Origin: Thraustochytrium sp. TN22
Taxonomy: Eukaryota > Sar > Bigyra > Thraustochytrida > Thraustochytriidae
Direction of reading: 5' to 3'
Assembly (NCBI GenBank): GCA_013306675.1
Contig: JABLUY010000279.1
Coordinates: forward strand, 1-22,452
DNA: 22,452 bases
The notes under the pieces were generated by a model. It was not told the origin of the DNA. It searched no databases and saw nothing but the letters and a program-made list of their open reading frames with translations. Positions 6,403 through 22,452 of the stretch are shown one piece after another. The first letter of the stretch is position 1. Each line of letters opens with the position of its first letter. A program made the position numbers and the translations under genes.

Positions 6403-9168
6403 TCACTCTTCATCATCGTCCTCGCCGTCGCTGGAGTCTGACGAGATGTCGGAGAACTGCGGCTTGCCGTTTGCCGGGGCCTGCTCCGCATCCGACTCGG
6501 GCTCGTCCTCCTCGAGCGAGAACCATGATGGCAAGGTGGCGCGCGTGTAGGTGTCGCTGACGACGTCCGAGGGCTGCACGCGGATGACACGCAGCGGGCC
6601 GTCGTTGCCCGCATGCGAGGGCGTATTGGTGAGGCGCAGCTTGGGCTCCAGCTCGTTGCGCGGCTTGCGCGTCTTGGTGAGCGGCGCGTCGCCCAGCGCG
6701 CCGGCAGCCACGACCTGCACGCCGCTCTCTTGAAACTTGCCCAGGAAGCGCTCGCAGACCACAGCCGGCATGTAGCCCGCAGCGGTCGGCGGCGCGGGCG
6801 GCGCCTCCGCCTCTGATGAGGCGGAGGCGGCATCCTCGGCTTTGGCGGCATCCTCGGCGTTGGCGGCATCTTCGGCTTTGGCGGCATCTTTGGCGGCATC
6901 CCCGACAAAGTCCCACATGTGGTGCGAAAAGACGAGGACGTGGCGCGCGCAGAGCTTGCCCTCTAGAATCTGGCTCTCAATCCACTTGGCCTGATCCTCT
7001 GCGCCCGGATCCGCCGTGGCCGCGTGGGCGAGCGTGGCGAGCTGGAAAGAGTCCAGCACGAGGACCATGACGCCGCGCAGGTAAAAGGAGTAGTAGGAGG
7101 AACCAAAGGCGGCGTCGAAGTCAGCAGCCGGGCGGCCGTCCGGCACGCAGGCTAGCGGGATAGAGAGGTCGAGGCGGCAGAGCGCCGGCTTGAGCGCCGC
7201 GGCGTCGCCGAGGCGGCCACCGCAGACGACCAGGCGCGGCGGTGGGTCGAGGCGGTTGAGGCGGCGCATGGTGGCCTCGACGTCGGCCGGCTGAGCATCC
7301 GCCAGGTCGCCGAGGTGCACGATGAGGAAGGAGTCGCGCGCCTTGCCCTCCTCGGCCTCGGAGAGGCCGGTAAAGTCGCGGCCGGCCGCGCGGTGGAAGC
7401 GCGCGGCCTCCTCGTCGGCGAAAAAGAGCTGGTAAATGTTCTGGTTGCGCAGCGCTAGCCGCTGCGCGAGCAGGCCCATGAGGTAGTCGCGCACGCGCTT
7501 CGGGACGCGGCCCGGCGCAAAGGTGCCGGGCGTCTTGGCCCACTCCGGCAGCGTGCGGCGCTTGGGGAACTCGGGCAGGCGCACGTCGGCGCCCGGGCCG
7601 GTCACCGGCGGCGGCGGGCCGGTGAGCACCTGCACGGCGGAGGCGCAGCAGAGCTCAAAGAGCGTGGGCACGGGGCGCACCGGATTGAGGAGCACGGCGG
7701 CGAAGTCGATGCCAGCAAAGGCTGGGTGCTGCTTGATGCCGGCCAGGCAGTCCTGCGCGCCGAGACGCTCAGCCGGGTCCTCACGGAAGATGCGGCTCAG
7801 CATGTCCGCGAGGTCGTCGGAAAAGTACGCCGGCATCTCGTAGTTGAGCGCCTGCGTCTTGAGAAACGTCAGGTACGGGCTGTTGCCCTTGAAGGGGATG
7901 CGCCCGCTGTGCAGCTGAAACATGGTGACAGCGAGCGCCCAGAGGTCGAGCGCGAAGGTGGGCGCCGCCTTGCCGGCAATGGCCTCCGGACTCATGTACT
8001 CGGGCGTGCCGACAAAGTGCGGACCGTTGAGCGCACCGTCGTTGGTGTCGTAGGCCGTGCCGAAGTCGATAAGCTTGACGCGTTCGACGCGGCCGCCCGA
8101 GGCCGGGTCCGCAAAGAGCATCATGTTCTCTGGCTTGATGTCCCGGTGGATCACACCCTGCGTCTGCAGGTACTCGAGCGCGTTGACGATCTGCGCGCAG
8201 TAAAAGACCGCCTCGCTGGGCGGCAGCGAGACCAGCGCCGTGCGCCCGTACCGCAGGCGCGCCCAGAGCTCGCCGGCCGTGGCCAGCTCCGTCACGTAAT
8301 ACAGGTGCCGCACGTCCTGCATGGTAAAGTACAGCTTGACCACATTCGGGTGCGCCAGCCGCAGCAGCAGCTTCTTCTCCATGATGAGCTCGTTGTGCAG
8401 GTTCGGGTGCCGCCGCGACATGCGCTGCGCCTTGTCCTTGTCCACGGACTTGATGGCGAAACGCTCGCCCGTGCGTCGGAAGACCGCGCTGTGCACCTCC
8501 GAGTAGTTGCCCTCGCCCAGCATCGCATCAATCTCGAACATGGACAGCGACAGCTTCGCCGTGCACCCCTTGATGCTGCCGTGCTGCGCCACGTACGCCT
8601 CCGCCTTGGCCTGCGATGACTGCGAACCGGTCTGCCGCTCCAGCTGCTCCACCTGCCGCCGCAGCCAGGCGCTCTCCGGCTCCAGCTCCAGCGCCAGGCA
8701 GTAGGTGTCCCGCGCCTCCTCCAGGCGTCCCAGCTCCAGCAGCGCCTGGCCCTTGCGGTGGTGGCCCTTGACCCAGCCGGGCCGCAGCCCGACCGTCTGC
8801 TCCGCCGCCTCCAGCGCCGCCTCCGCCTCGCCCAGCTTGAGCCGCGCCGCCGCCAGGTTGCACAGCAGCGTCGGCAGCAGCTCCACGAGCTCCGCCGTCG
8901 CCGCCGACGCCTCCTCGGACGCCGCCAGGGCGCCCTCCGCGCGGGCGGCCGCCGCCACGTCCGCTGCCGCCGTCGCCGCCGCCGGCGCGCTGCCGCCGCT
9001 CGCCGCCGCCAGCGCCGCGCCGCCGCCGTCGCGCAGCGCGCCCAGCGCCGCCTCAACCGCCATCGCGTACGCCGCCGCCGCCGCCGCCGCATCCCCGGTC
9101 TCGAACGCAGCGTTGCCGCGCGCCTTGAGCGCCTGCGCCTCCGCCGCCGCGCCCGCCGCCGACGCCAT
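6403..9168 (-). CDS. TPR - PDK1-like AGC kinase - degenerate CPPED1-like phosphoesterase fusion
   Basis: 921 residues from the ATG at 9168, which has A at -3 and G at +4. A weaker in-frame ATG lies at 9255, and the frame opens further only with non-ATG codons. Residues ~10-180 hold three Hsp70/Hsp90-cochaperone-type TPRs with an Ala-rich insert after the first. Residues ~210-490 are a kinase closest to PDK1: GEGNYSEV 218-225, K240, HRDIKPEN 341-348, DFG 368-370, FVGTPEYMSPE 385-395, DLWAL and a Pro-Phe-Lys-Gly pocket loop. The catalytic residues are intact, so it should be active on AGC-kinase activation loops. No PH domain is visible. Residues ~612-865 follow the layout of CPPED1-type calcineurin-like phosphoesterases but lack most metal ligands. 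An Ala/Glu/Asp/Lys repeat interrupts that domain, and the C-terminus is acidic. Family calls are by motif reading; the fusion is uninterrupted in sequence. Confidence 0.9.
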   Translation of the reverse strand: MASAAGAAAEAQALKARGNAAFETGDAAAAAAAYAMAVEAALGALRDGGGAALAAASGGSAPAAATAAADVAAAARAEGALAASEEASAATAELVELLPTLLCNLAAARLKLGEAEAALEAAEQTVGLRPGWVKGHHRKGQALLELGRLEEARDTYCLALELEPESAWLRRQVEQLERQTGSQSSQAKAEAYVAQHGSIKGCTAKLSLSMFEIDAMLGEGNYSEVHSAVFRRTGERFAIKSVDKDKAQRMSRRHPNLHNELIMEKKLLLRLAHPNVVKLYFTMQDVRHLYYVTELATAGELWARLRYGRTALVSLPPSEAVFYCAQIVNALEYLQTQGVIHRDIKPENMMLFADPASGGRVERVKLIDFGTAYDTNDGALNGPHFVGTPEYMSPEAIAGKAAPTFALDLWALAVTMFQLHSGRIPFKGNSPYLTFLKTQALNYEMPAYFSDDLADMLSRIFREDPAERLGAQDCLAGIKQHPAFAGIDFAAVLLNPVRPVPTLFELCCASAVQVLTGPPPPVTGPGADVRLPEFPKRRTLPEWAKTPGTFAPGRVPKRVRDYLMGLLAQRLALRNQNIYQLFFADEEAARFHRAAGRDFTGLSEAEEGKARDSFLIVHLGDLADAQPADVEATMRRLNRLDPPPRLVVCGGRLGDAAALKPALCRLDLSIPLACVPDGRPAADFDAAFGSSYYSFYLRGVMVLVLDSFQLATLAHAATADPGAEDQAKWIESQILEGKLCARHVLVFSHHMWDFVGDAAKDAAKAEDAANAEDAAKAEDAASASSEAEAPPAPPTAAGYMPAVVCERFLGKFQESGVQVVAAGALGDAPLTKTRKPRNELEPKLRLTNTPSHAGNDGPLRVIRVQPSDVVSDTYTRATLPSWFSLEEDEPESDAEQAPANGKPQFSDISSDSSDGEDDDEE
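6826..6900 (-). repeat. 18-bp tandem repeat coding AEDAAK-like hexapeptides
   Basis: About four copies of an 18-bp unit (+ strand form near gcatcctcggctttggcg) with small substitutions. It encodes DAAK-DAAKAED-AANAED-AAKAED-type peptides at residues ~757-781 of the kinase fusion. It sits inside the phosphoesterase-like domain just after the conserved FSHH segment and looks like a recent in-frame expansion, probably a charged helical loop. Confidence 0.75.
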
Positions 9169-10216
9169 CCTCCCGCCGCCGACGCCCGCGCGCGCAGCCG
9201 CTCCCCGCCGCCGACGCCCGCCGACGGAGTTCGACTTTGAGTTCGAGTTCTGCATGGGCCACGCCGTGGACCACCACCACCACCACGACGACGACGACAA
9301 CGACGACGACGACGACGTCGACGACGAGAAGGACGAGGACTGGACGTGGCTTCGACGAAGACTATTGTGGATTGTGAGGAGACGACGAACCGGGCGAGAA
9401 CATACACGAAGACCACGGCGACGAGGACGCACACGAGGACAACGAAGGAGGACGACGAAGATGCGGATGAGTACAACGACGAGGACTTGCCGGCCACTAT
9501 GTGGATTAGCAGCCAGCCAATCCCCAGCAAAAAGACCGGCGCGCCGCAGCACAGGCTGCTGCGCTCGATGAGCTCGGCAACTTTAGCTGGCCACTGCAGG
9601 AGCTGCATGCAAGTGTGAGTGCTGTCAATCCAGCGGCGGTCCACAGGAACGGCGTCGTTGTATACGCCATGCTACACCATCGCGGGCGTCTTTTCTGGCA
9701 GTACCGCGTGACTCGCTGCTCACGCGCTGCCAGCACTATGAGAGCGATCCGGGATGCAAGGTCGTGCGCATCACGTCGCTTGAGCGCAATTGAGTTCGCG
9801 CGACAAACTCAAAAGCCACTCCAAAGATTGCACGGGCGCGCGACGGCGCGTCGATGATGAGTACAAGCGTGATTTTGAGCTGGTGGGGCAAACACCACCT
9901 CCTACTGGCTGCTTCGGCATCGCGCCGAGGCGCCGCCCAGGCATACCGTCGTCGACCTGCCCTCGCCGACAGAACCTGCGCGTGCTCGCAGTCCGAGTCA
10001 CTGCCGGCTGCCAGGTCAACCAACACGCAGTCGTGCGCGGGTGAAGTAGTAAAACCTCAAAGCCGCGCCTGCTCGTCCAGGGGCCGCCGTCGCAGCCGGC
10101 GCTAGTGCCGCGGCGCTGAGAGCGGCGGTCGAGCGCACTAGGCGTGCGCAAGGTGGTGCTTGCCAGCGCGCAAGTCGGCGGCGGAGTTCTGCGAGACGGC
10201 ATCGCGGGAGTGCACC
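9169..10216. other. Divergent intergenic region between the TPR-kinase and the ATP-grasp gene
   Basis: 1048 bp between two divergent ATGs. Near the kinase it contains a trinucleotide block: (CCA/CAC)5 followed by GAC repeats at ~9270-9330. A CCAAT is present at 9517-9521, but no clear TATA follows in either direction. Several frames are open because of base composition, with low-complexity products (His/Asp or Ser/Trp runs). No RNA gene or protein I can support was found. Confidence 0.5.
9270..9330. repeat. CAC/GAC trinucleotide repeat
   Basis: Roughly five CAC units followed by about a dozen GAC units with interruptions (aac, gtc). It lies 100-160 bp upstream of the chosen ATG of the TPR-kinase fusion, hence in its 5' UTR or promoter. 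If translation began further upstream it would give a Ser/Trp-rich tail, which argues against an upstream start. Confidence 0.7.
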
Positions 10217-11231: not shown

Positions 11232-12593
11232 TCAGGGCTTGAAGGAGCGGAGAGCCTTAGCGAACCGAGACATCAGCTGCGAGTCCACAAGCAGAGCGAC
11301 GCGAAACGCACGGCTCATCTCGAGCTGAACAGAGAGAAGCCGGCCTTGCAGGATATCCACCGATTTACGCGTCATGGTGCGGTATGCAGAGCCCCCCGCA
11401 CCTGCAAACTTCGGGTTGGCATCGACGACCCACTCCGGCCCAATGGCATCCTGGACGTGTTGCATGAAGGCAGATTTGATGGCGAGGACATCTTCCAGGG
11501 CCGCGGACGGGTCCTCAGCAGTCTTGGCATAGCGTTCCATTGCCCCGAAGCCAACAGACACAGCCCCAGAGACGCCGTCAACCTCCCAGTTTCGGCGCCC
11601 GTGGCAGTCAAAGTGCTTGCGTCCATAGGGTTCCGAAGACGAGTCCCACGCAGGGAGGATTTCCTGCATCGCGCTCCAAAACCCATCGGTCTCCTCCTTG
11701 TCCATGTACGCGAAGTTGGGGTCATACGCCTTGGGGTGAGGCAGCTTGGTCTCGGACGAGCGGAGAGTCTCGGCGCGGGCCCAGCCGAGGTAGGTGCCGG
11801 ACAACTCCGTGGCAAGGGTGCGGGCCACGTAGGTTGCATAATTCTCGGGAAGATGGACCTCACCCTCTTTGCGGACAACGTACGTCCCGTGAGGCGCGCT
11901 CACGAGCACAGGTTCAGACCCATGAGTGGTGACGTCAACGCCCGCCGGCGGCAGGCGCTCCTCCAGACGGTTGAGCAGCTCTTCCGGGAGCCCCAGCATG
12001 GCCTGCAGACGTGATTCGGTCACGCGCTCTGCCTTGACGACCTTGCGCTTGGCGTTGCGGCCCTGCTCGGCGCTCGGCAAAGGGTCTCCATCCGGGCCAG
12101 CGACAACCTGAAAGAGCTCGGCCAGCCGGGACCAGCTGCCCTCTGCAGCCTCGACAATTCGTTCCGCCACGTCGTCCGCGGACGCAGCTCCATCCCCCCC
12201 CGACTCCGCTGCCACGCTCTGCGCCCAAGCAAAGATTTCATCCCGCGCCTCAGACGCCTTCCAGATCTCCGCGCAGTGTTGGTCGAGCGCGCCGGCCATT
12301 TCCTTGAGCATGCCGTCGCCGGCGTCGCCGCACGCGCCCGCGACCTCCGTGCCCAGCTCGAGCAGCTTCATGTAGCGCATCGTGTTCCCATTCGCCTCCT
12401 CGAGCGTCGCCAGGCTGTAGAGTGACTGGCAGAGCTCGATGCTGCCAAAGTTCTCCGCCATCTGCGCCTGAATGCTGCTCTCCAGGTCCTCCATTTTCCC
12501 CTGCGGGTTCACGCAGTTCGCGGCCAGCTCCGTCGTTGCCGAACTGGCCAGCGGGCTCGAGCTCGCTCCGGCGAGGCTTGCGAAGACCGACAT
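11232..12593 (-). CDS. Free-standing N-formylglutamate amidohydrolase-like (FGase-like) protein
   Basis: 453 residues from the ATG at 12593 (G at -3). An in-frame ATG at 12632 has a poor context and the 13 codons between use atypical third positions, so I read them as 5' UTR. Residues ~35-185 are helical and unrecognised. Residues ~190-450 follow the FGase (hutG/PF05013-type) pattern: VSAPHGT with H235 (cf. PHSG), E250, a YDPNF segment (cf. DxNRP), HFDCHGRRNW with H327, D329 and H331 (cf. DxHS), VSVGFGAM, VDANPKFAGAGG (cf. NxxxKGG) and VQLEMSRAFR with E425 (cf. QxEL). Such enzymes are zinc-dependent amide hydrolases. The assignment rests on motif order, not a search, and an M14/aspartoacylase-like relative is an alternative. 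The same domain ends the divergent gene starting at 13912. Confidence 0.7.
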   Translation of the reverse strand: MSVFASLAGASSSPLASSATTELAANCVNPQGKMEDLESSIQAQMAENFGSIELCQSLYSLATLEEANGNTMRYMKLLELGTEVAGACGDAGDGMLKEMAGALDQHCAEIWKASEARDEIFAWAQSVAAESGGDGAASADDVAERIVEAAEGSWSRLAELFQVVAGPDGDPLPSAEQGRNAKRKVVKAERVTESRLQAMLGLPEELLNRLEERLPPAGVDVTTHGSEPVLVSAPHGTYVVRKEGEVHLPENYATYVARTLATELSGTYLGWARAETLRSSETKLPHPKAYDPNFAYMDKEETDGFWSAMQEILPAWDSSSEPYGRKHFDCHGRRNWEVDGVSGAVSVGFGAMERYAKTAEDPSAALEDVLAIKSAFMQHVQDAIGPEWVVDANPKFAGAGGSAYRTMTRKSVDILQGRLLSVQLEMSRAFRVALLVDSQLMSRFAKALRSFKP

Positions 12594-13239
12594 GGCTGTA
12601 CTTTGCAAGTAATAGCACACGGATTCGCTCATGCAGCACCGCCGGCCGTCGCGCTTTCCTGACGGACGTCGGCGTCGGGCGTCCACGCGCGACGCCGTCC
12701 GGGCTCACCGCCCCTGGCGCTTGCAGACAGACCGCCAAGCCGCCGCCAAGTCGCCGCCGAGCCGCCGCCAAGCTAGCGCCGCCCTCCGTCTACCGCGCCG
12801 CGCCGCCCTTCCCCGCGACCGCGCGGCTTGCTGCTCTGCACCCGGCCGCCGCGCGCCGCGCCGCCGCTCTCGCCGCCGCCGCTCTCGAAGGCCATCATGC
12901 GCTCATGTGCAGGTGCAGGTCCCACGGCAGTACCATGGACCAGTACCTCCAAGGTCCTGTTAGCAGCAAAGCTTCAAGTTGAGCACCACGGTCACCTGGC
13001 CAGCACCACCGACACACGAACTCTCTCGAGTATGTTACCACTGCAGTTAATCAAAAGTCGTCGCCGCGGCGCGGCTGGCCGTCAAGTTGCGTAGCGGCGA
13101 AGGAGCGCGCGACTTGGAGAGCGGTAGCGAGTGGTAGCTCTGCTGGTGCGGTGCACCTAACGTTAAAGGCTCTCCAACTTCTCCAAGTAGACGTCAAGTA
13201 GAACTCCAACCAAGCAAAGCAGTGAAAGCACTCGCCACG

Positions 13240-13280
13240 GAGTAGCCAGGCTCGCTGCTCGCACTGCAGGCAGGCTACTC
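13240..13280. repeat. 8-bp inverted repeat with 25-bp loop
   Basis: GAGTAGCC (13240-13247) is matched by GGCTACTC (13273-13280) on the other arm, with an inner CTGCAG-containing loop and an adjoining CTCGCGCGAG palindrome at 13279-13288. It could form a hairpin or be a paired protein-binding site. Short arms in a GC-rich region make chance plausible. Confidence 0.35.
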
Positions 13281-13762
13281 GCGCGAGCGGGGGCTTCTGG
13301 GGGCAGCGCGCGACGGCGCAGCCCGCTCTCCGCCAGGGCTTCCCTCTCCCGCGTTCAGCCGCCGGCCCCCAAGCAGACGGTCAGGCGCGGCCTGCGCAGA
13401 GATGTGCCGAGACACGGCGGCCGCCCCCAGCCAGCGCGCGTCCAGCCGCGGACCCTTGCACGCGCGTGCGGTGACGGCGCGCGCGGCCGTGGTTGCCCTG
13501 CTCAGCCTGCTGCGGCGCAAGGCGCTGCGGTGGCCGGCCGCGGCCAGCCGCAGCCCGAGTCCGGTCGGTCGCGCTGCGAGGCCGCCTGCGCAAGGAGCAC
13601 GCGCGAGCAAGCTGCCAGCGCTGGCATGGCCTGCAGCGGCGCAGCGGCAGTCCCGGCGGCCTCGGCACGCGCGGCGACCGTGACACGCCACGGCGCGGCG
13701 CGTGCACTGGCAGCGGTCGCGCTGGCCGGAGAGTAAATACCTGCTCGCAGTCAGTGAGCCCC

Positions 13763-13780
13763 CTGGCACTGCAGTGCCAG
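13763..13780. promoter_or_regulatory. Perfect 18-bp palindrome upstream of the NACHT gene
   Basis: CTGGCACTGCAGTGCCAG reads identically on both strands. It lies 131 bp before the ATG at 13912 and ~25 bp after an AT-rich gagTAAATAcc. A symmetric site of this length suggests binding of a dimeric regulator or a hairpin in the 5' UTR. No specific factor can be named. Confidence 0.45.
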
Positions 13781-13911
13781 TGGTGACTGGCCGCAATCAA
13801 AGCCAGAATCAGGTCAGCGGGCAGGGCTACGCATTCAACTTGAGCTGGGCGCAGCGCAGGAGCGGCGCGCGGCGCGAGGCAGGACGGAAACTCGAGCAGC
13901 GCGGCGGCAAC

Positions 13912-16900
13912 ATGGGCGCGAAGAGCTCGCGGCCGCACAAGGGCCGGCAGCGCGAGGCGGGCGGCGAGGGCGCGCAGCGCAGGTCGCTCACCGCCAAGCT
14001 CGCGCGACTCTCGGGCGCGCGGGGCAAGCATGAAGGCGCGGGCGGCGCGGCGGCAGGGGAGAACGACAGCGCGGCCAGAGCGCTGCAGGCCGCGCTGGCA
14101 CGCGTTGGGCTGGACCTGAGCTGCGGGTTCAAGGCGGAGGACCTCAAGGCCATCAGGGAGGCGCCCATCTGGACCACGCTCGTGCAGGCCGCCGACCTGG
14201 TGCGCGGCTTGGCGGGCGACGACTTGGAGCGAGAGATGCGCCTGGAGATCCTGTCGACCCTCCCCGACGAAGTCCCGCGCTTCTCGCCCGTGGCCGTCAA
14301 GTTCTTTCTCTCGTCTACCTTCACGGACACCAAGATCGAACGCGACAGCTTCCTCGAGCTCGTCGACACGCCGCTGCGCGAGCTCGCAGCTGCGCTCGGC
14401 TGTAACTACGAGGCTAGGGAGATGCGCTGGGGCATTTCTGACCATGTCACAAGGAACCACAAGACCACCGACACCTGCCTTCACGTGATCCAGCGAACTT
14501 CGAGCGAAAGCGACGCGCTCAGCTTTCTCTTCTTCAGCACGGACAAGTACGGCTACCAGGACATCCCGGCCGAGGTTCCGGCCGAGACCATGCGCGCTAT
14601 GCTTGACGTGGCCGACGACGAAGAGCGCCGGGTGCTCCTGGTGGCGTATCGGGAGGAAAACAACATGCTCTCCGGCGCCTTCTGCATCCAGCCCGCGGCG
14701 CTCAAGGAGGAAGATCTGAGCGATCAAGTCGTCCGCTCGACGCTGCTTGCGGCCGCGGCGCGCGCGGATCTCACCTCCTTCGTCGACCTGCTCGAGATGT
14801 CAGTCACGTTTCGCGAGGTGCAGGAAGGGATTTTGTCGAACCCGGCGGCAGCCACCCAGGCGTTCTGCCTCGTTCGCACTCTCTCAAGCGCGGATGAGAC
14901 GGATTGGAACTACTTCGATCACAAGGAGGACAAGATCGATGAGCTCCGCGAGCTCGTGACCGACTGCCTCCCGGCCGATCGCATCGGCCGCTACGGGGTC
15001 CACTACCCCTCGCTCATAGCCGGCGGCGAGAAGGCGAGCGCGGCAGTGGCCGAATGCCTCCGCCAGATGCTCTTCGTTGTCGCGACATCCATTCTGGAGA
15101 GCGCCGCAACCGTGTCGATTGTGCGCGATCCCTTTCTTCGCGAGTGCTGCGTGCACGCCGAAAGCGCCCATCGTCTTTGCGCCGAAGCAGAGCGTACGCA
15201 GGTCCTCGAGTCATTCCTGGATGACGCACAGTCCACGCTACTCGCCAGCTCTGGGAGATGCCTGGGTATCGTCGGTGCCCCCGGAAGCGGCAAGAGTACT
15301 GCGCTGGCCCTTCTCGCCCGGGACATTCAAGCTACAACAACGCGGAGTCTCGTTTTTCGAAACTTGGCCCTCTACAAGGGGGACTCAAAGGACTTCATGG
15401 ACTCTGTCGCGACGCAGTTGGAGCTTCTCAAGGCGAACCGTCCCGAGCTCCTGCAAGAGGGGGCCGTAGTCACCGCCCAACCGGACTTTGACGGCAGCGA
15501 AGAGGAGGACAGCTCCTCTACGAAGCGGTCCGCGTCGTGGGAGGAAGCCCGCACACGATTTTTCTCAGCTCTCCGCGGGTTCCGCGAGGGCACTCTGATG
15601 CTCGCATTTGATGGCCTTGACAAGCTCGACAGGCCGCCTGCAGCTTTCCTCCCACCGCTCGAGGGCCAGAACATGGTCTTCACGTCCGATACAGCCGTCG
15701 ACGGGCACGCGCAGATTCACGTGCTGGAGATGGGCGAGGCGTTCGGGAGCGAGGACCACATCAGCGACATGATCCTGCACCACCTCGCCGCCATGGGCCG
15801 CACCGTTACCGACGAGCAGCTCCGCACCGGCGTCTCTGCCTTGCAGAAGAACCTGCAGGAGAAGCACGCTGCATGGAGTGCTCTCGAAGCACGCGCGTTC
15901 GCAACCTTGGCATCGTTCTGGCCGTCGTGGACGCTTCCCAGCGCTGCCGAGGTGGCTCACCCCGTGCATGGCGTCTTCGAGCACGCGGAAGAAATCTACG
16001 GCGCGCCCATCGTTGGCACCATCTCAGGCCTACTCATCGTGTCCAGATTCGGTCTCAGCGAGGCGGAACTGCTGGACATTCTCAGTCTCGATGATCCAGT
16101 ACTGGAAACCGTCTTCCAGTACTGGACCCGGCCTGTGCGCCGTTGCCCTTCACTCGTGCTGGAGCAGATCCTGGAACTCTTTGAGCCATTTCTCCTCCGC
16201 ACGCATGGAGCGAGCGGGTCCAGCGCTCCGCTGCTGACTTGGCGCTCCGAGATCTTTCGCGACACGGCCAGGTCGCGCTACATGCCAGACGTATCGGCCG
16301 AGACTGACCTGCGGCGCTTGCTCGTGGACTACTTCTCGGGCGCGTACGCCAACGGCAAGAAGTACAATGACGTCATGTACGCGCGCCTGGTGAACCCACA
16401 GCCCCTGGTGCTACGGGCTACCACCAAGCAGGTCACCGTGTACAACTTGCGCCGCGCCGCCGAGCTGCCCTACCAGCTCCTCCTTCTGAAGGACTGGCCC
16501 GCCTTTCTCGACGTGCAAGGTGATGTGGATATGTTCCAGGCGCAGTACCGTCTGGTGTCCAATGCGCAAGACGAGGCCATTTACATGACTCAGGCTTACC
16601 TCAAGAAGCAGCCTGCTTCTGCTTACGACGACGCCAAGCACCAGCTGGTGGACAAGTATCTCGCGTCCATCTCTGACGGCACCCAGGTCATCCAGATTGA
16701 ACGCCTCGGAATCTTCTTCCTGAAGATGTCCTGGTTCGACGCGTCTCGATCCGTCCAGCAGCGCGTGCTCCGCCATCGTGAGAAGCACGACAAGGGGACC
16801 ATCGCACACGTGCGGTCTGCGTTTCGGCTTCAGCTTGTAGACTACCGCGAGGGCGTCAGGACACCAGCGCTGGTGACGCAGGGCCAGGAGAACCTCGACC

Positions 16901-18600
16901 GCATGGAGAGCATCGTCAGGCGCGATGGCCATCCGTCGAGCGCGACCATAATGCTCTACTCCGAGATGCAGGCCACGCAGGCGGCGATCCTGCTGCAGGA
17001 GGCGAGGAAGGCGCGCATTGCCGGAAAGCCCCGTGACGAGATCGCGCCGGTCCTGCAGCGTTCGCTTGAGCTCCGTGCCGCGTCACTGGCATACCGCGAG
17101 AAGCTTTTTGGCCACGAGCACAGCGAGACGGCCAAGTCCTACGGCGGCCTCTCCGTCTCGTATCGCGAGATCGGAGATGTGGAGAAGGCTCTCGAACTCG
17201 CCGAGGAGTGCCTTCGTATTCGCGAGGTCGTGCTGGCACGCAACGACCCAGCCCTCGCAATGGCGCTCGAGAACGTGCACAAGGCACGCGCCAGGCTCGC
17301 TACGCCCCCGCCGGACGTCTACGATCCTAACGACGAGCTTCTCATCCGCGCCTTTGAGATTACCCAGGACTACTATGGTGCCGTGCACGGGCGCATAGGG
17401 CGCGTCCTCAAGGCATACGGCATGCATTGCTTCACGAGCGGCCGCAACGAGGAGGCCTACGAGATCTTTCGCTTCGCCGCGGAGATCTTCTTCCGTCTGC
17501 GCGAGTCCAACACGAAGAACGCTTCCGCCTCCGTGACTTCGGTCGCAGACAGGAAGGATGTGGGCCCGATCGCCGAGAAGCTCGCCGCGCTCCAAAACGG
17601 CCGTCTTGATGCTGTACAGGAGGTCTCGCAGGATACTTTCGCGCACTGGATCGAGGCTGCCGGGCTCCGCAAAGAAGCCTGCGAGAGGCTGAGCCAGGCG
17701 GTGAGGGGGAGCTCCGTAGAGCTTTCCATCCTGCTTACGCTAGGCGCCTCTGCCCATCCCCTTGATGCGGCAGGCAACGTTCTGGCGTACGTTCGGCATG
17801 AACTTCCAGACGCCGCGGGGGAGGGTCTGGACTCCCGTCTCAACCATGTGCTGGGCGAGCAAGGCTTAGCGCCGCTCGCAAAGGACGAGCTCGATGCCCT
17901 GATCGACACGTTCCCGGCTGCGCGCGCTGACCTCTCAACGAAGGGAGATGCATCTCTTTTGGTCATCTCCAGCCACGGCGCCCCGTGCATGCGAGATGGC
18001 AAGCCCCAGGACGCCCAGCCGCATCTTGACTTCGTTGCTCGTTCGGTGACAAGCGTCGCCAACGCCAGCAGTCTGTGTTGGGATGAGACCGAGCTTCTCC
18101 GCGCGCTGGCAACCATGCTCCCGCACCCCAAATTGACCGTCGACCCGAACCACCTACCCACTGGGGAGGAGACCGCCTCCCCCTTTTACGAGCCCCTTCT
18201 CGAGTGGGCCAAGGACCACCAGGACGGAGCCGTGGTCTCATTGCACGGCCGTGGGGATTGGGTTGAGGCTGGTACGGAGCTTCGTGGCGCTATCTCGGTT
18301 GGCACTGGCGCGTTGCGGAATTTCAGGTCGGAGGAGACGGCTGCCTCTGTTGAAGCGTCTCTTCTGGACGCTCTCCGCAGTGCTGTTGGACCTGGATGGT
18401 GCGTCGATGCCAACAAGAATTACGGCGGCAAGGGCGGAAGCTCTTGGACAAACCTGACGAACCAGTTCCTGGCCGAGGCAGGCTCGGAGGCCTTGGCCAT
18501 CGACCTCTCCATTTCACGAGCCTTTCGGCAGCACCTCATTCTCAACACGCCTCTCCGCGTTCGCCTTGCAGAAGCGATCGCTTCTACGCTTTGCTCTTAG
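13912..18600 (+). CDS. STAND receptor-like protein: myristoylation motif - DUF4062-like - NACHT - winged helix - TPR - FGase-like
   Basis: 1562 residues from the ATG at 13912 (ggcaacATGg, strong); the frame is open to 13702 but only from a GTG. The N-terminus MGAKSS fits an N-myristoylation signal followed by basic residues. Residues ~127-240 match the DUF4062-like module of NWD1/TEP1/NPHP3-type proteins: KFFLSSTFTDT 130-140, MRWGIS 171-176, DKYG 211-214. The NACHT NTPase has Walker A GAPGSGKST 455-463 and Walker B LMLAFDGLDKL 562-572. The NACHT-linked winged helix is at ~695-800 (SGLLIVSRFGLSEAELLDILSLDD region). Helical repeats follow, with clear TPRs at ~1045-1130 and a likely one at ~1140-1200. 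Residues ~1305-1560 are an FGase-like domain homologous to the divergent gene, with H1355 and H1445 kept. Predicted as a membrane-attached, nucleotide-switched sensor or scaffold; what it senses is unknown. Confidence 0.88.
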   Translation: MGAKSSRPHKGRQREAGGEGAQRRSLTAKLARLSGARGKHEGAGGAAAGENDSAARALQAALARVGLDLSCGFKAEDLKAIREAPIWTTLVQAADLVRGLAGDDLEREMRLEILSTLPDEVPRFSPVAVKFFLSSTFTDTKIERDSFLELVDTPLRELAAALGCNYEAREMRWGISDHVTRNHKTTDTCLHVIQRTSSESDALSFLFFSTDKYGYQDIPAEVPAETMRAMLDVADDEERRVLLVAYREENNMLSGAFCIQPAALKEEDLSDQVVRSTLLAAAARADLTSFVDLLEMSVTFREVQEGILSNPAAATQAFCLVRTLSSADETDWNYFDHKEDKIDELRELVTDCLPADRIGRYGVHYPSLIAGGEKASAAVAECLRQMLFVVATSILESAATVSIVRDPFLRECCVHAESAHRLCAEAERTQVLESFLDDAQSTLLASSGRCLGIVGAPGSGKSTALALLARDIQATTTRSLVFRNLALYKGDSKDFMDSVATQLELLKANRPELLQEGAVVTAQPDFDGSEEEDSSSTKRSASWEEARTRFFSALRGFREGTLMLAFDGLDKLDRPPAAFLPPLEGQNMVFTSDTAVDGHAQIHVLEMGEAFGSEDHISDMILHHLAAMGRTVTDEQLRTGVSALQKNLQEKHAAWSALEARAFATLASFWPSWTLPSAAEVAHPVHGVFEHAEEIYGAPIVGTISGLLIVSRFGLSEAELLDILSLDDPVLETVFQYWTRPVRRCPSLVLEQILELFEPFLLRTHGASGSSAPLLTWRSEIFRDTARSRYMPDVSAETDLRRLLVDYFSGAYANGKKYNDVMYARLVNPQPLVLRATTKQVTVYNLRRAAELPYQLLLLKDWPAFLDVQGDVDMFQAQYRLVSNAQDEAIYMTQAYLKKQPASAYDDAKHQLVDKYLASISDGTQVIQIERLGIFFLKMSWFDASRSVQQRVLRHREKHDKGTIAHVRSAFRLQLVDYREGVRTPALVTQGQENLDRMESIVRRDGHPSSATIMLYSEMQATQAAILLQEARKARIAGKPRDEIAPVLQRSLELRAASLAYREKLFGHEHSETAKSYGGLSVSYREIGDVEKALELAEECLRIREVVLARNDPALAMALENVHKARARLATPPPDVYDPNDELLIRAFEITQDYYGAVHGRIGRVLKAYGMHCFTSGRNEEAYEIFRFAAEIFFRLRESNTKNASASVTSVADRKDVGPIAEKLAALQNGRLDAVQEVSQDTFAHWIEAAGLRKEACERLSQAVRGSSVELSILLTLGASAHPLDAAGNVLAYVRHELPDAAGEGLDSRLNHVLGEQGLAPLAKDELDALIDTFPAARADLSTKGDASLLVISSHGAPCMRDGKPQDAQPHLDFVARSVTSVANASSLCWDETELLRALATMLPHPKLTVDPNHLPTGEETASPFYEPLLEWAKDHQDGAVVSLHGRGDWVEAGTELRGAISVGTGALRNFRSEETAASVEASLLDALRSAVGPGWCVDANKNYGGKGGSSWTNLTNQFLAEAGSEALAIDLSISRAFRQHLILNTPLRVRLAEAIASTLCS

Positions 18601-20426: not shown

Positions 20427-22452
20427 CGAGGTTGAGCTGCAGCCCAAGGAAGAGCAAGGGGACGGCCTGAGCAACGACATCGTGTGGTACCGCGGACTCA
20501 GCGTCGCCGCGCTACAGGCCATCTGGCAAGGCATCCTCAACGGCGAACGCGCGCAGGGCGTCCAACTCTACGTGCTCAAGGAGAACGTCGATGCCACCGA
20601 CAACAGGGGAATCAAGACGGGCACTGCCAACGCTGGCTTCACCGCCGCGGTTCGACGGCCCCGCGCCGATGGCAAGCTCAAGGGCAACGTTGCCTACGTC
20701 AAAGGCCAAGTCCTCTTCTCCCCCCACCAAGCCACACCCAAGGACAGGGCCGACTGGACCATCGAAGACGTCTGCGAATACCTTGTGCTCACCGACACCC
20801 TTCGCGGCAGCCTCTTCTACCTCGACGTCCTGCTAGAGGAGGCCGACGACCTCGTCGGCAAGCCCTTCGACGGCGCCTTCGTCAGCCAAGCGCGCAAGTG
20901 CCGCTTCGGCGACCTCGTCCAAGCCATCGTCGCGCACTACACGAACCAGGACAGGAACCTCCGCACGACCTTCGTCTGGCTCGATATCTTCTGCGCCAAC
21001 CAGCCCAAGCTCGCCAACAAGGACAAAGACCTCTTGCCCGAAATCTGCAAGCAGCGCGATGACCTCCTCACGCACGGCCTCCACGCCGCCATTGAGCGCT
21101 TCGACGAACGCCTCATCTTCTTCGACAAGTGGGACAACCCCACACCGCTCACGCGCATGTGGTGCGTCTGGGAGGTCTACGGCGCCGTCAACTGCGGCAG
21201 GGCCCTCGAGCTCATCTTTGCGCCGGGCCAGGACGAGCACTTCATCCAGCTCATGAAGGACGAGACGCCCGACGCCATTACCATGGCGCTCTCCAAGTTC
21301 AACCTTGCCAACGCCGACTGCCACTCTGACGCTGATCGCAAGATGATCACGGAGGCCGTCCAAGCCCTGCCCGGCGGCTTCCGCAACCTCAATGGTGTCG
21401 TGCTCGAGCAGCTGCGCTTCTGGCTCGCACAAACCGCGCGGCGCATCGTGGCCTCTCGCGTTCAGAGCGAAGGAAAGACCGTAGGGGTGGCATTTCTCAT
21501 GCACAACGTCGCCTGGCTGCTGGAAGACCAAGGCTGCGACAAGGACGCCCTCGACCTCTACCGGCAGTCGCTCGAGATCAAGTTGATCACGCAAGAACCG
21601 AGTCACACAAACGTGCTGGCAACGAAGCACAGGATCGCCCATGTGCGGCAGGACATGGGCCAGTACGAGGCGGCGCTGGCGCAGTTCAACGAGGTGCTGG
21701 AGCAACACGTGGAGCAGCTCGGGCCGACGCACCCGTCCGTGCTGACGACGAAGCACAGTATCGCCCAAGTGCGGCAGGACATGGGCCCGTACGAGGCGGC
21801 GCTGGCGCAGTTCAACGAGGTGCTGGAGTACGAAGTGGAGCAGCTCGGGCCGACGCACCCGTCCGTGCTGACGACGAAGCACAACATCGCCCAAGTGCTG
21901 AAGGACATGGGCCAGTACGAGGCGGCGCTGGCGCAGTTCAACGAGGTGCTGGAGCAACGCGTGGAGCAGCTCGGGCCGACGCACCCGTCCGTGCTGACGA
22001 CGAAGCACAGTATCGCCCAAGTGCGGCAGGACATGGGCCCGTACGAGGCGGCGCTGGCGCAGTTCAACGAGGTGCTGGAGTACAAAGTGGAGCAGCTCGG
22101 GCCGACGCACCCGTCCGTGCTGACGACGAAGCACAACATCGCCCAAGTGCTGAAGGACATGGGCCAGTACGAGGCGGCGCTGGCGCAGTTCAACGAGGTG
22201 CTGGAGCAACGCGTGGAGCAGCTCGGGCCGACGCACCCGTCCGTGCTGACGACGAAGCACAGTATCGCCCAAGTGCGGCAGGACATGGGCCCGTACGAGG
22301 CGGCGCTGGCGCAGTTCAACGAGGTGCTGGAGTACGAAGTGGAGCAGCTCGGGCCGACGCACCCGTCCGTGCTGACGGCGAAGCACAACATCGCCCATGT
22401 GCTGCTGGACATGGGCCAGTACGAGGCGGCGCTGGCGCAGTTCAACGAGGTG
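20338..22452 (+). CDS. PolyQ - TIR-like domain - kinesin-light-chain/NPHP3-type TPR protein (partial, 3' end beyond window)
   Basis: The frame is open from the ATG at 20338 (A at -3) to the last base: 705 codons, no stop, so the C-terminus is missing. Residues 12-29 are 18 glutamines. Residues ~140-390 form a domain with FVSQARKCRFGDLVQAI at ~181-197, FVWLDIFCANQ at ~212-222 and LTRMWCVWEVYGA at ~271-283. The order (Ser-containing first strand, Asp at the end of a hydrophobic strand, R-x-WC-xx-E) recalls TIR-fold domains and a family often fused to TPRs in algae and other protists. The first-strand SHAW seen in many such proteins is SQAR here. A degenerate TPR (~400-441) is followed by six full 42-residue TPRs plus part of a seventh, each with GPTHPSVLTTKH. 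A receptor or scaffold role is inferred only. TIR-like assignment is tentative; TPR assignment is certain. Confidence 0.88.
20371..20424 (+). repeat. Uninterrupted (CAG)18 microsatellite coding polyglutamine
   Basis: Exactly eighteen pure CAG triplets with no synonymous CAA interruption, beginning 33 bp after the predicted start codon. They code Q12-Q29 of the TPR protein. Pure repeats of this length are prone to slippage, so length variation between strains is expected. Confidence 0.95.
21661..22452 (+). repeat. 126-bp tandem repeat array with 252-bp A/B higher-order period
   Basis: Six full 126-bp units start at 21661, 21787, 21913, 22039, 22165 and 22291; a seventh starts at 22417 and is cut by the window edge. 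Units alternate. Type A begins QYEAAL and ends KHSIAQVRQDMG; type B begins PYEAAL with LEYEVEQL or LEYKVEQL and ends KHNIAQVLKDMG. Each unit codes one 42-residue TPR. Copies differ by only a few bases, including at synonymous sites, showing recent duplication or gene conversion. The last full unit has diverged (LTAKH, IAHVLLDMG). Confidence 0.95.

Follow-up and report, generated by a model that had tools for sequence, protein, structure and literature searches.

The DNA considered here is a window of 22,452 nt, the first part of a 44,090-bp contig (C198) in a genome of Thraustochytrium sp. TN22 that comprises 37.9 Mb in 453 contigs and was searched as a whole. At the centre of the window lie two divergently transcribed neighbouring genes, one of which (P0001, minus strand) encodes a free protein with a domain resembling N-formylglutamate amidohydrolases (FGases), and the other of which (P0002, plus strand) encodes a multidomain protein with a STAND-type ATPase that ends in a domain of the same kind. 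A sequence-only reading of this stretch had described the two as divergent neighbours, and both frames are indeed open at the coordinates collected in Table 1. Their GC content by codon position follows the order seen in other window genes (third position, GC3 > GC1 > GC2), and two antisense frames differ in this respect. The start of P0001 is uncertain because a further in-frame ATG lies 39 bases upstream of the one given in the table, at 12632, from which a protein of 466 residues would be made.

Table 1. Positions in the window of the divergent gene pair, of the domains that it encodes and of the gene that converges with P0001
Feature	Position	Strand	Remarks
RimK-like ATP-grasp ligase gene, convergent with P0001	10217..11128	+	PF08443 match
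P0001, free FGase-like protein, 453 aa	11232..12593	-	open frame
Core of the shared domain in P0001, residues 192-453	11235..12020	-	H235, D291, N293, H331 and E425 at FGase-invariant positions
Divergent intergenic stretch, 1,318 bp between the starts of the sequence-only reading; putative shared promoter	12594..13911		
P0002, DUF4062-STAND-winged helix-TPR protein with appended FGase-like module, 1562 aa	13912..18600	+	
DUF4062, TIR-like, about residues 128-330	14293..14901	+	Pfam 18.2 bits, profile match; E302 codon 14815-14817
STAND/AAA ATPase match, residues 436-581	15217..15654	+	Pfam, Walker A and Walker B-like motifs
NWD1-like winged helix, residues 684-792	15961..16287	+	HTH_NWD1, Pfam 39.2 bits, cut-off 27
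TPR (tetratricopeptide) repeats, residues 1049-1113 in Pfam matches	17056..17250	+	TPR_12 45.1 bits, cut-off 30.1
Appended FGase-like domain of P0002, residues 1255-1562	17674..18597	+	H1355, D1411, N1413 and H1445 kept; S1533 facing E425

The proposal that both proteins end in a common domain is borne out by direct comparison. BLASTP aligns P0001 141-450 with P0002 1255-1558 at 95 identical positions of 326 (29%, E 3e-31), all of the short sequence blocks earlier listed as shared occur in the same order in both translations, and alignment of the core (P0001 192-453 vs P0002 1306-1562) returned a z of 21, with 0/1000 shuffles scoring as high. On the strength of these alignments, the free and the fused domain are homologous. 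No third copy emerged from the genome: at E <= 0.001 a search with P0001 (4 candidates scored) retrieved only P0001 itself and P0002 (E 1.6e-28), and for the stretch 1252-1558 of P0002 the only match was P0001 (30 of 116 candidates scored). The best local alignment of P0001 on P0002 begins at residue 1193, and its portion before residue 1255 is weak (P0001 74-140 vs P0002 1193-1254, a score reached by 9 of 1000 shuffles); a relationship between the proteins in an N-terminal TPR region was not established. In DNA, the two copies have in common just one 39-nt inverted match (74%) inside the domain. Outside this genome, no relative of the domain was found in phage or plasmid collections, and none was confirmed by short, non-exhaustive peptide patterns among genome_contigs (45 pattern matches) and viral_contigs (13 pattern matches), or among 377 sampled genomes from the phylum of a Sandaracinus metagenome-assembled genome (L036), in which the sole weak match (E 0.002 over 52 profile positions) fell in an open reading frame (ORF) that looks unrelated by eye.

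By its domain order, P0002 is a member of the NPHP3/NWD1/TEP1-type DUF4062-STAND proteins. The Pfam models TPR_12 and HTH_NWD1 exceed their cut-offs (Table 1), the models AAA_16 (26.8 bits, cut-off 32.6), NPHP3_N (21.4, cut-off 24.8) and DUF4062 (cut-off 24.7) score below theirs, and the ATPase motifs are kept (Walker A GAPGSGKS at residue 455, Walker B-like LMLAFDGLDK at 562). The sequence-only reading had called P0002 a NACHT receptor; the protein is of DUF4062-STAND-winged helix-TPR type, and its 22 listed Pfam families do not include NACHT. Among the matches listed for at least three of the four DUF4062-STAND paralogues discussed next, the NACHT model does appear. At least four further genes of the genome combine DUF4062 with the ATPase (L020, L021, L022 and L023), the number being a lower bound because 30 of 116 candidates were scored. 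Two of the encoded proteins end in WD40 repeats (on C111 near 271 kb, and on C332) and two in TPRs (on C111 near 510 kb, and on C142), and the FGase-like module is in none of the four. The best paralogue, P0009, aligns over residues 128-1192 of P0002 (22%, E 6e-32), which leaves 370 residues at the C-terminus outside this common region. Because the likeness to the paralogue ends at 1192 and the alignment with P0001 begins at 1193, the P0001-like module appears to have been appended to an NPHP3-like protein.

The N-terminal DUF4062 is the candidate effector of P0002. In a 2026 preprint (PMC13174449), DUF4062 is presented as a TIR-like NADase, with TEP1 activity requiring E1008. A profile of DUF4062 from P0002 and the four paralogues matches the TEP1 TIR chain 11gz_A (E 6.7e-20), in which, by a numbering inferred from R908, R954 and R976, which the preprint names, E1008 is the second Glu of SVTEMEV. 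Since SVTFREV of P0002 aligns to this motif, the catalytic Glu position is kept as E302, in a column that is invariant in five DUF4062 proteins including the four paralogues. The notion of a dead DUF4062 in P0002, prompted by a segment (CLHVIQRTS) lacking a Glu present in the four paralogues, was ruled out, as it is E302 that aligns with the catalytic Glu of TEP1. Judged from these alignments, NADase catalysis by P0002 is possible, not assured. Human TEP1, NPHP3, NWD1 and NWD2 (PMC13174449) resemble P0002 in having DUF4062 followed by a STAND ATPase, a winged helix and repeats, with the Glu position kept; P0002 differs from all four in its C-terminal FGase-like module, and from TEP1, the only one reported as active in the assay, at the three Arg positions named above.

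This family membership also invites a quite different account of the pair, to which we give appreciable but minor credence. P0002 would be a non-immune, NPHP3-like scaffold of the flagellum or a membrane, and its C-terminal domain would dock with P0001, the enzyme with which it works, either as a heterodimer or as a regulator; neither bait nor cell death would be involved. NPHP3 is the closest human architecture (TPR_NPHP3 and NPHP3_N matches), it is described as myristoylated and ciliary (PMC9266639), and it is without NADase activity in the preprint (PMC13174449). P0002 begins with MGAKSS, as P0007 does with MGQGKS, and both fit MGxxxS. A scaffold accords less well with the retention of the catalytic Glu position in P0002, and the Pfam NPHP3 models score on P0002 under their cut-offs.

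The naming of the shared domain as FGase-like has to be taken in a remote sense: profile-profile scores uphold the relationship, and a match to the Pfam FGase family (PF05013) is not found. PF05013 gave no match at E <= 10 to P0001, P0002 or the P0002 C-terminus, so that its curated cut-off is not reached, and HMMER searches with profiles of our own did not place domain against FGase above shuffles. By hhalign, however, a two-row profile (P0001 and P0002) scored 32.9 locally and 29.3 globally against 59 FGases, and 300 column shuffles of the same profile attained at most 21.6 and 12.0. Taken singly, the domains scored 31.2 (P0002) and 22.9 (P0001) in local mode, against no more than 21.0 for 297 control ORFs, many of them probably not real genes (300 minus the three FGases L148_1, L029_3 and L019_1); in global mode P0002 (21.8) stood above the controls (13.4) and P0001 (5.2) did not. 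The proteins of two of these three, P0006 (L029_3) and P0004 (L019_1), are already inside the profile. When only four FGases (P0006, P0004, L154 and L155) made up the profile, the local score of P0001 was 32.1 and the highest non-FGase control reached 24.6, but the local score of P0002 (16.4) and both global scores were not above controls; with HutG-type FGases alone, 6/300 shuffles reached the local score and 38/300 the global one, and hhalign against single FGases aligned short stretches only. In the two-row alignment to the FGases, an H, a DxN, a second H and the final strand fall in register and in order. AlphaFold on the two domains alone gave a pLDDT of 45.2 and a pTM of 0.39, and with 11 FGases added 63.5 and 0.68; the best PDB matches of the FGase-aided model were a metallocarboxypeptidase and the FGase 2odf (E about 5e-3 with a TM near 0.4), and no PDB entry reached E <= 0.001. 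Because the added FGase rows bias this model, and because the underlying alignment (A7) misplaces the last Glu, it is at most consistent with an FGase fold. A remote relationship of the domain to FGases is supported by the profile comparisons. Elsewhere in the genome, two loci score above the Pfam FGase cut-off and are its sole PF05013 matches (L018 on C410 and L019 on C47); the C410 protein resembles Atu2144 (2odf) at E 1.6e-25.

Seven residues, in the order H, R, D, N, R, H and E, are invariant in 59/59 FGases, of which P0001 has five and P0002 four (Table 1); both Arg are missing in each copy, and S1533 of P0002 stands opposite E425 of P0001, the latter being paired with the FGase Glu in the two-row profile. 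As aligned, more of the FGase-invariant residues seem to survive in the free copy than in the fused one, which seems to be without the Glu. The shared domain is like the N-formylglutamate amidohydrolases (PF05013; Atu2144/2odf, HutG) in its ordered H, DxN, H and late Glu strand and in its remote profile match, and differs from them in lying under Pfam/HMMER detection, in lacking both Arg and, in P0002, probably the Glu.

These residues bear on what the fused copy might do. The sequence-only reading had the domain occurring both free and as the output or bait module of P0002; the free and the fused copy stand, and the output option has become the less likely one. An FGase-like output, in which the STAND ATPase would turn on an amidohydrolase, would draw on the remote FGase relationship and on the retention of both His and of the D and N in the fused copy. 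We hold it to be improbable, given that P0002 already has an N-terminal effector fold and that the fused copy is without both invariant Arg and probably without the Glu. STAND proteins usually employ their C-terminal modules for sensing. In this class of receptors the effector that has been characterised is DUF4062, at the N-terminus, and P0002 keeps its Glu position, so that the C-terminal copy is likelier to be a sensor or bait than an output.

Divergent orientation in itself carries little weight, because two of the seven adjacent pairs among the eight window genes taken as real are divergent. More telling than orientation is that the only two copies of the domain found are neighbours, yet about 30% identical, an identity from which the duplication can be taken to be old. 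A neutral history, in which an enzyme gene was duplicated locally and one copy became fused by chance read-through to the adjoining receptor gene, with no functional coupling, would leave just such adjacent copies, and both the frequency of divergent neighbours in the window and the restriction of the evidence to one genome are in its favour. We nevertheless think it unlikely, since, old as the duplication is, both frames have stayed open and each copy retains the domain motifs.

The explanation that we tentatively place first is that the fused copy in P0002 acts as a sensor or bait watching the substrate, the product or the attackers of P0001; such a role for the C-terminal module is plausible, though unproven. 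An NPHP3/TEP1-type signalling ATPase would have gained, at its C-terminus, a copy of the neighbouring FGase-like protein. A change at this module might then release the ATPase, and its release would allow the N-terminal TIR-like domains to oligomerise, with NAD+ loss or signalling as the consequence; were the N-terminal Gly myristoylated, this might take place at a membrane. Several points weigh against such a role. By eye, P0002 has T, K and K at the positions of TEP1 R908, R954 and R976. Of the human relatives, NWD1, NWD2 and NPHP3 all showed no activity in the assay in which TEP1 was active (PMC13174449). The loss of the Glu from the fused copy depends on the alignment, A7 shifting E425 by two and a P0002-only alignment placing the Glu elsewhere. 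An immune role for P0002, to which its resemblance to the bait-carrying receptors of plants might point, is conjectural.

In the integrated-decoy model (PMC4246468), a target is duplicated and fused to a receptor, as described for plant nucleotide-binding leucine-rich repeat receptors (NLRs). P0002 is comparable in that a host domain would have been duplicated and fused to a STAND receptor, with the free copy lying elsewhere in the genome, here adjoining; it differs in its receptor family, in the C-terminal position of the domain and in the lack of a second NLR, and no pathogen or effector is known. The parallel with plant paired NLRs drawn in the sequence-only reading therefore applies at most by half, because the linked gene encodes the free domain and no second, signalling NLR was seen in the window, the neighbours of P0002 encoding the ATP-grasp protein, the free domain protein and a Ras-like GTPase. 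Among bacterial systems, the DUF4062 antiphage system Swarozyc (PMC13174449) likewise joins a DUF4062 TIR-like effector to a sensing part; its KpSwz chain is matched weakly by our DUF4062 profile (E 0.51), and no FGase-like part is mentioned in the portion of the text at hand. In the open-licence literature, among the matches listed, neither an FGase domain combined with a NACHT/NLR-type protein nor a pairing of formylglutamate with RimK/ATP-grasp was found; no open-licence paper on an FGase crystal structure with zinc was found, and thraustochytrid with NACHT returned only papers unrelated by title. DUF4062-STAND proteins and integrated domains are each known already, and their combination, as seen here, appears in none of the matches listed from that literature. 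The integrated bait domains understood so far are those of plant NLRs, and P0001 and P0002 would be a candidate case of the same device having evolved in protists far removed from plants. If the sensor or bait reading is true, a TIR-like NADase would be the output, and the more complete free copy adjoins the receptor. Were the pair also conserved in related genomes, sensor evolution by duplication and fusion would not be special to plants.

The RimK-like ATP-grasp gene (PF08443, 30.3 bits, cut-off 21) and P0001 end 103 bp apart, and the former is a possible third member of the set. It is a single-copy gene, with no second match in its own genome at E <= 0.01, and 3vpb (E 0.002) is its sole PDB match. 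GC3 is 0.771 in the ATP-grasp gene, 0.771 in P0001 and 0.779 in P0002, as against 0.867-0.933 in four other window genes; 39 ORFs at other loci, taken by a selection rule of our own from overlapping loci, and therefore including duplicate entries and perhaps frames that are not genes, have a mean of 0.854 (standard deviation 0.051), and 3/39 are as low as the trio. The lower GC3 common to the three genes may be a weak hint of a shared history. ATP-grasp RimK-like ligases form amide bonds, and FGase-like enzymes cleave them. On account of these opposite chemistries, a writer-eraser-reader scheme can be imagined, in which the ATP-grasp protein would add an amino-acid tag through an amide, P0001 would remove it, and the degenerate eraser domain of P0002 would read the tag or the state of the eraser, with NAD+ loss upon disturbance; we consider this scheme a long shot.

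Other genes of the window and genome deserve brief mention. On the minus strand, 6403-9552 encodes TPRs and a protein kinase in one frame, the last 410 residues of which match no Pfam family at E <= 1. On the plus strand, an open frame at 20470-22452 continues past the end of the window and consists of a non-TPR N-terminal part followed by near-identical 42-residue TPR units, with a DNA period of 126 bp at 92% matches and one of 252 bp at 97%. By eye the N-terminal part, with a WCVWE-type motif, looks TIR-like; the best 25 of the 51 Pfam families matched by the protein include no TIR model. The non-TPR part (20740-21570) has 116 genome matches at E <= 0.001, some of them pieces of one gene, and seven others at 83-91% identity; by these matches, the protein belongs to a large, still duplicating family. 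Finally, C124 carries near 26.7-41.1 kb a PfaA-type polyunsaturated fatty acid synthase in a single uninterrupted frame of 3044 residues (TIGR02813, 2539.7 bits including neighbouring matches in the frame), which, like the high GC and the long open frames of the genome, is in keeping with a thraustochytrid; a divergent frame of 2083 residues with ketosynthase-like matches adjoins it, making another divergent pair.

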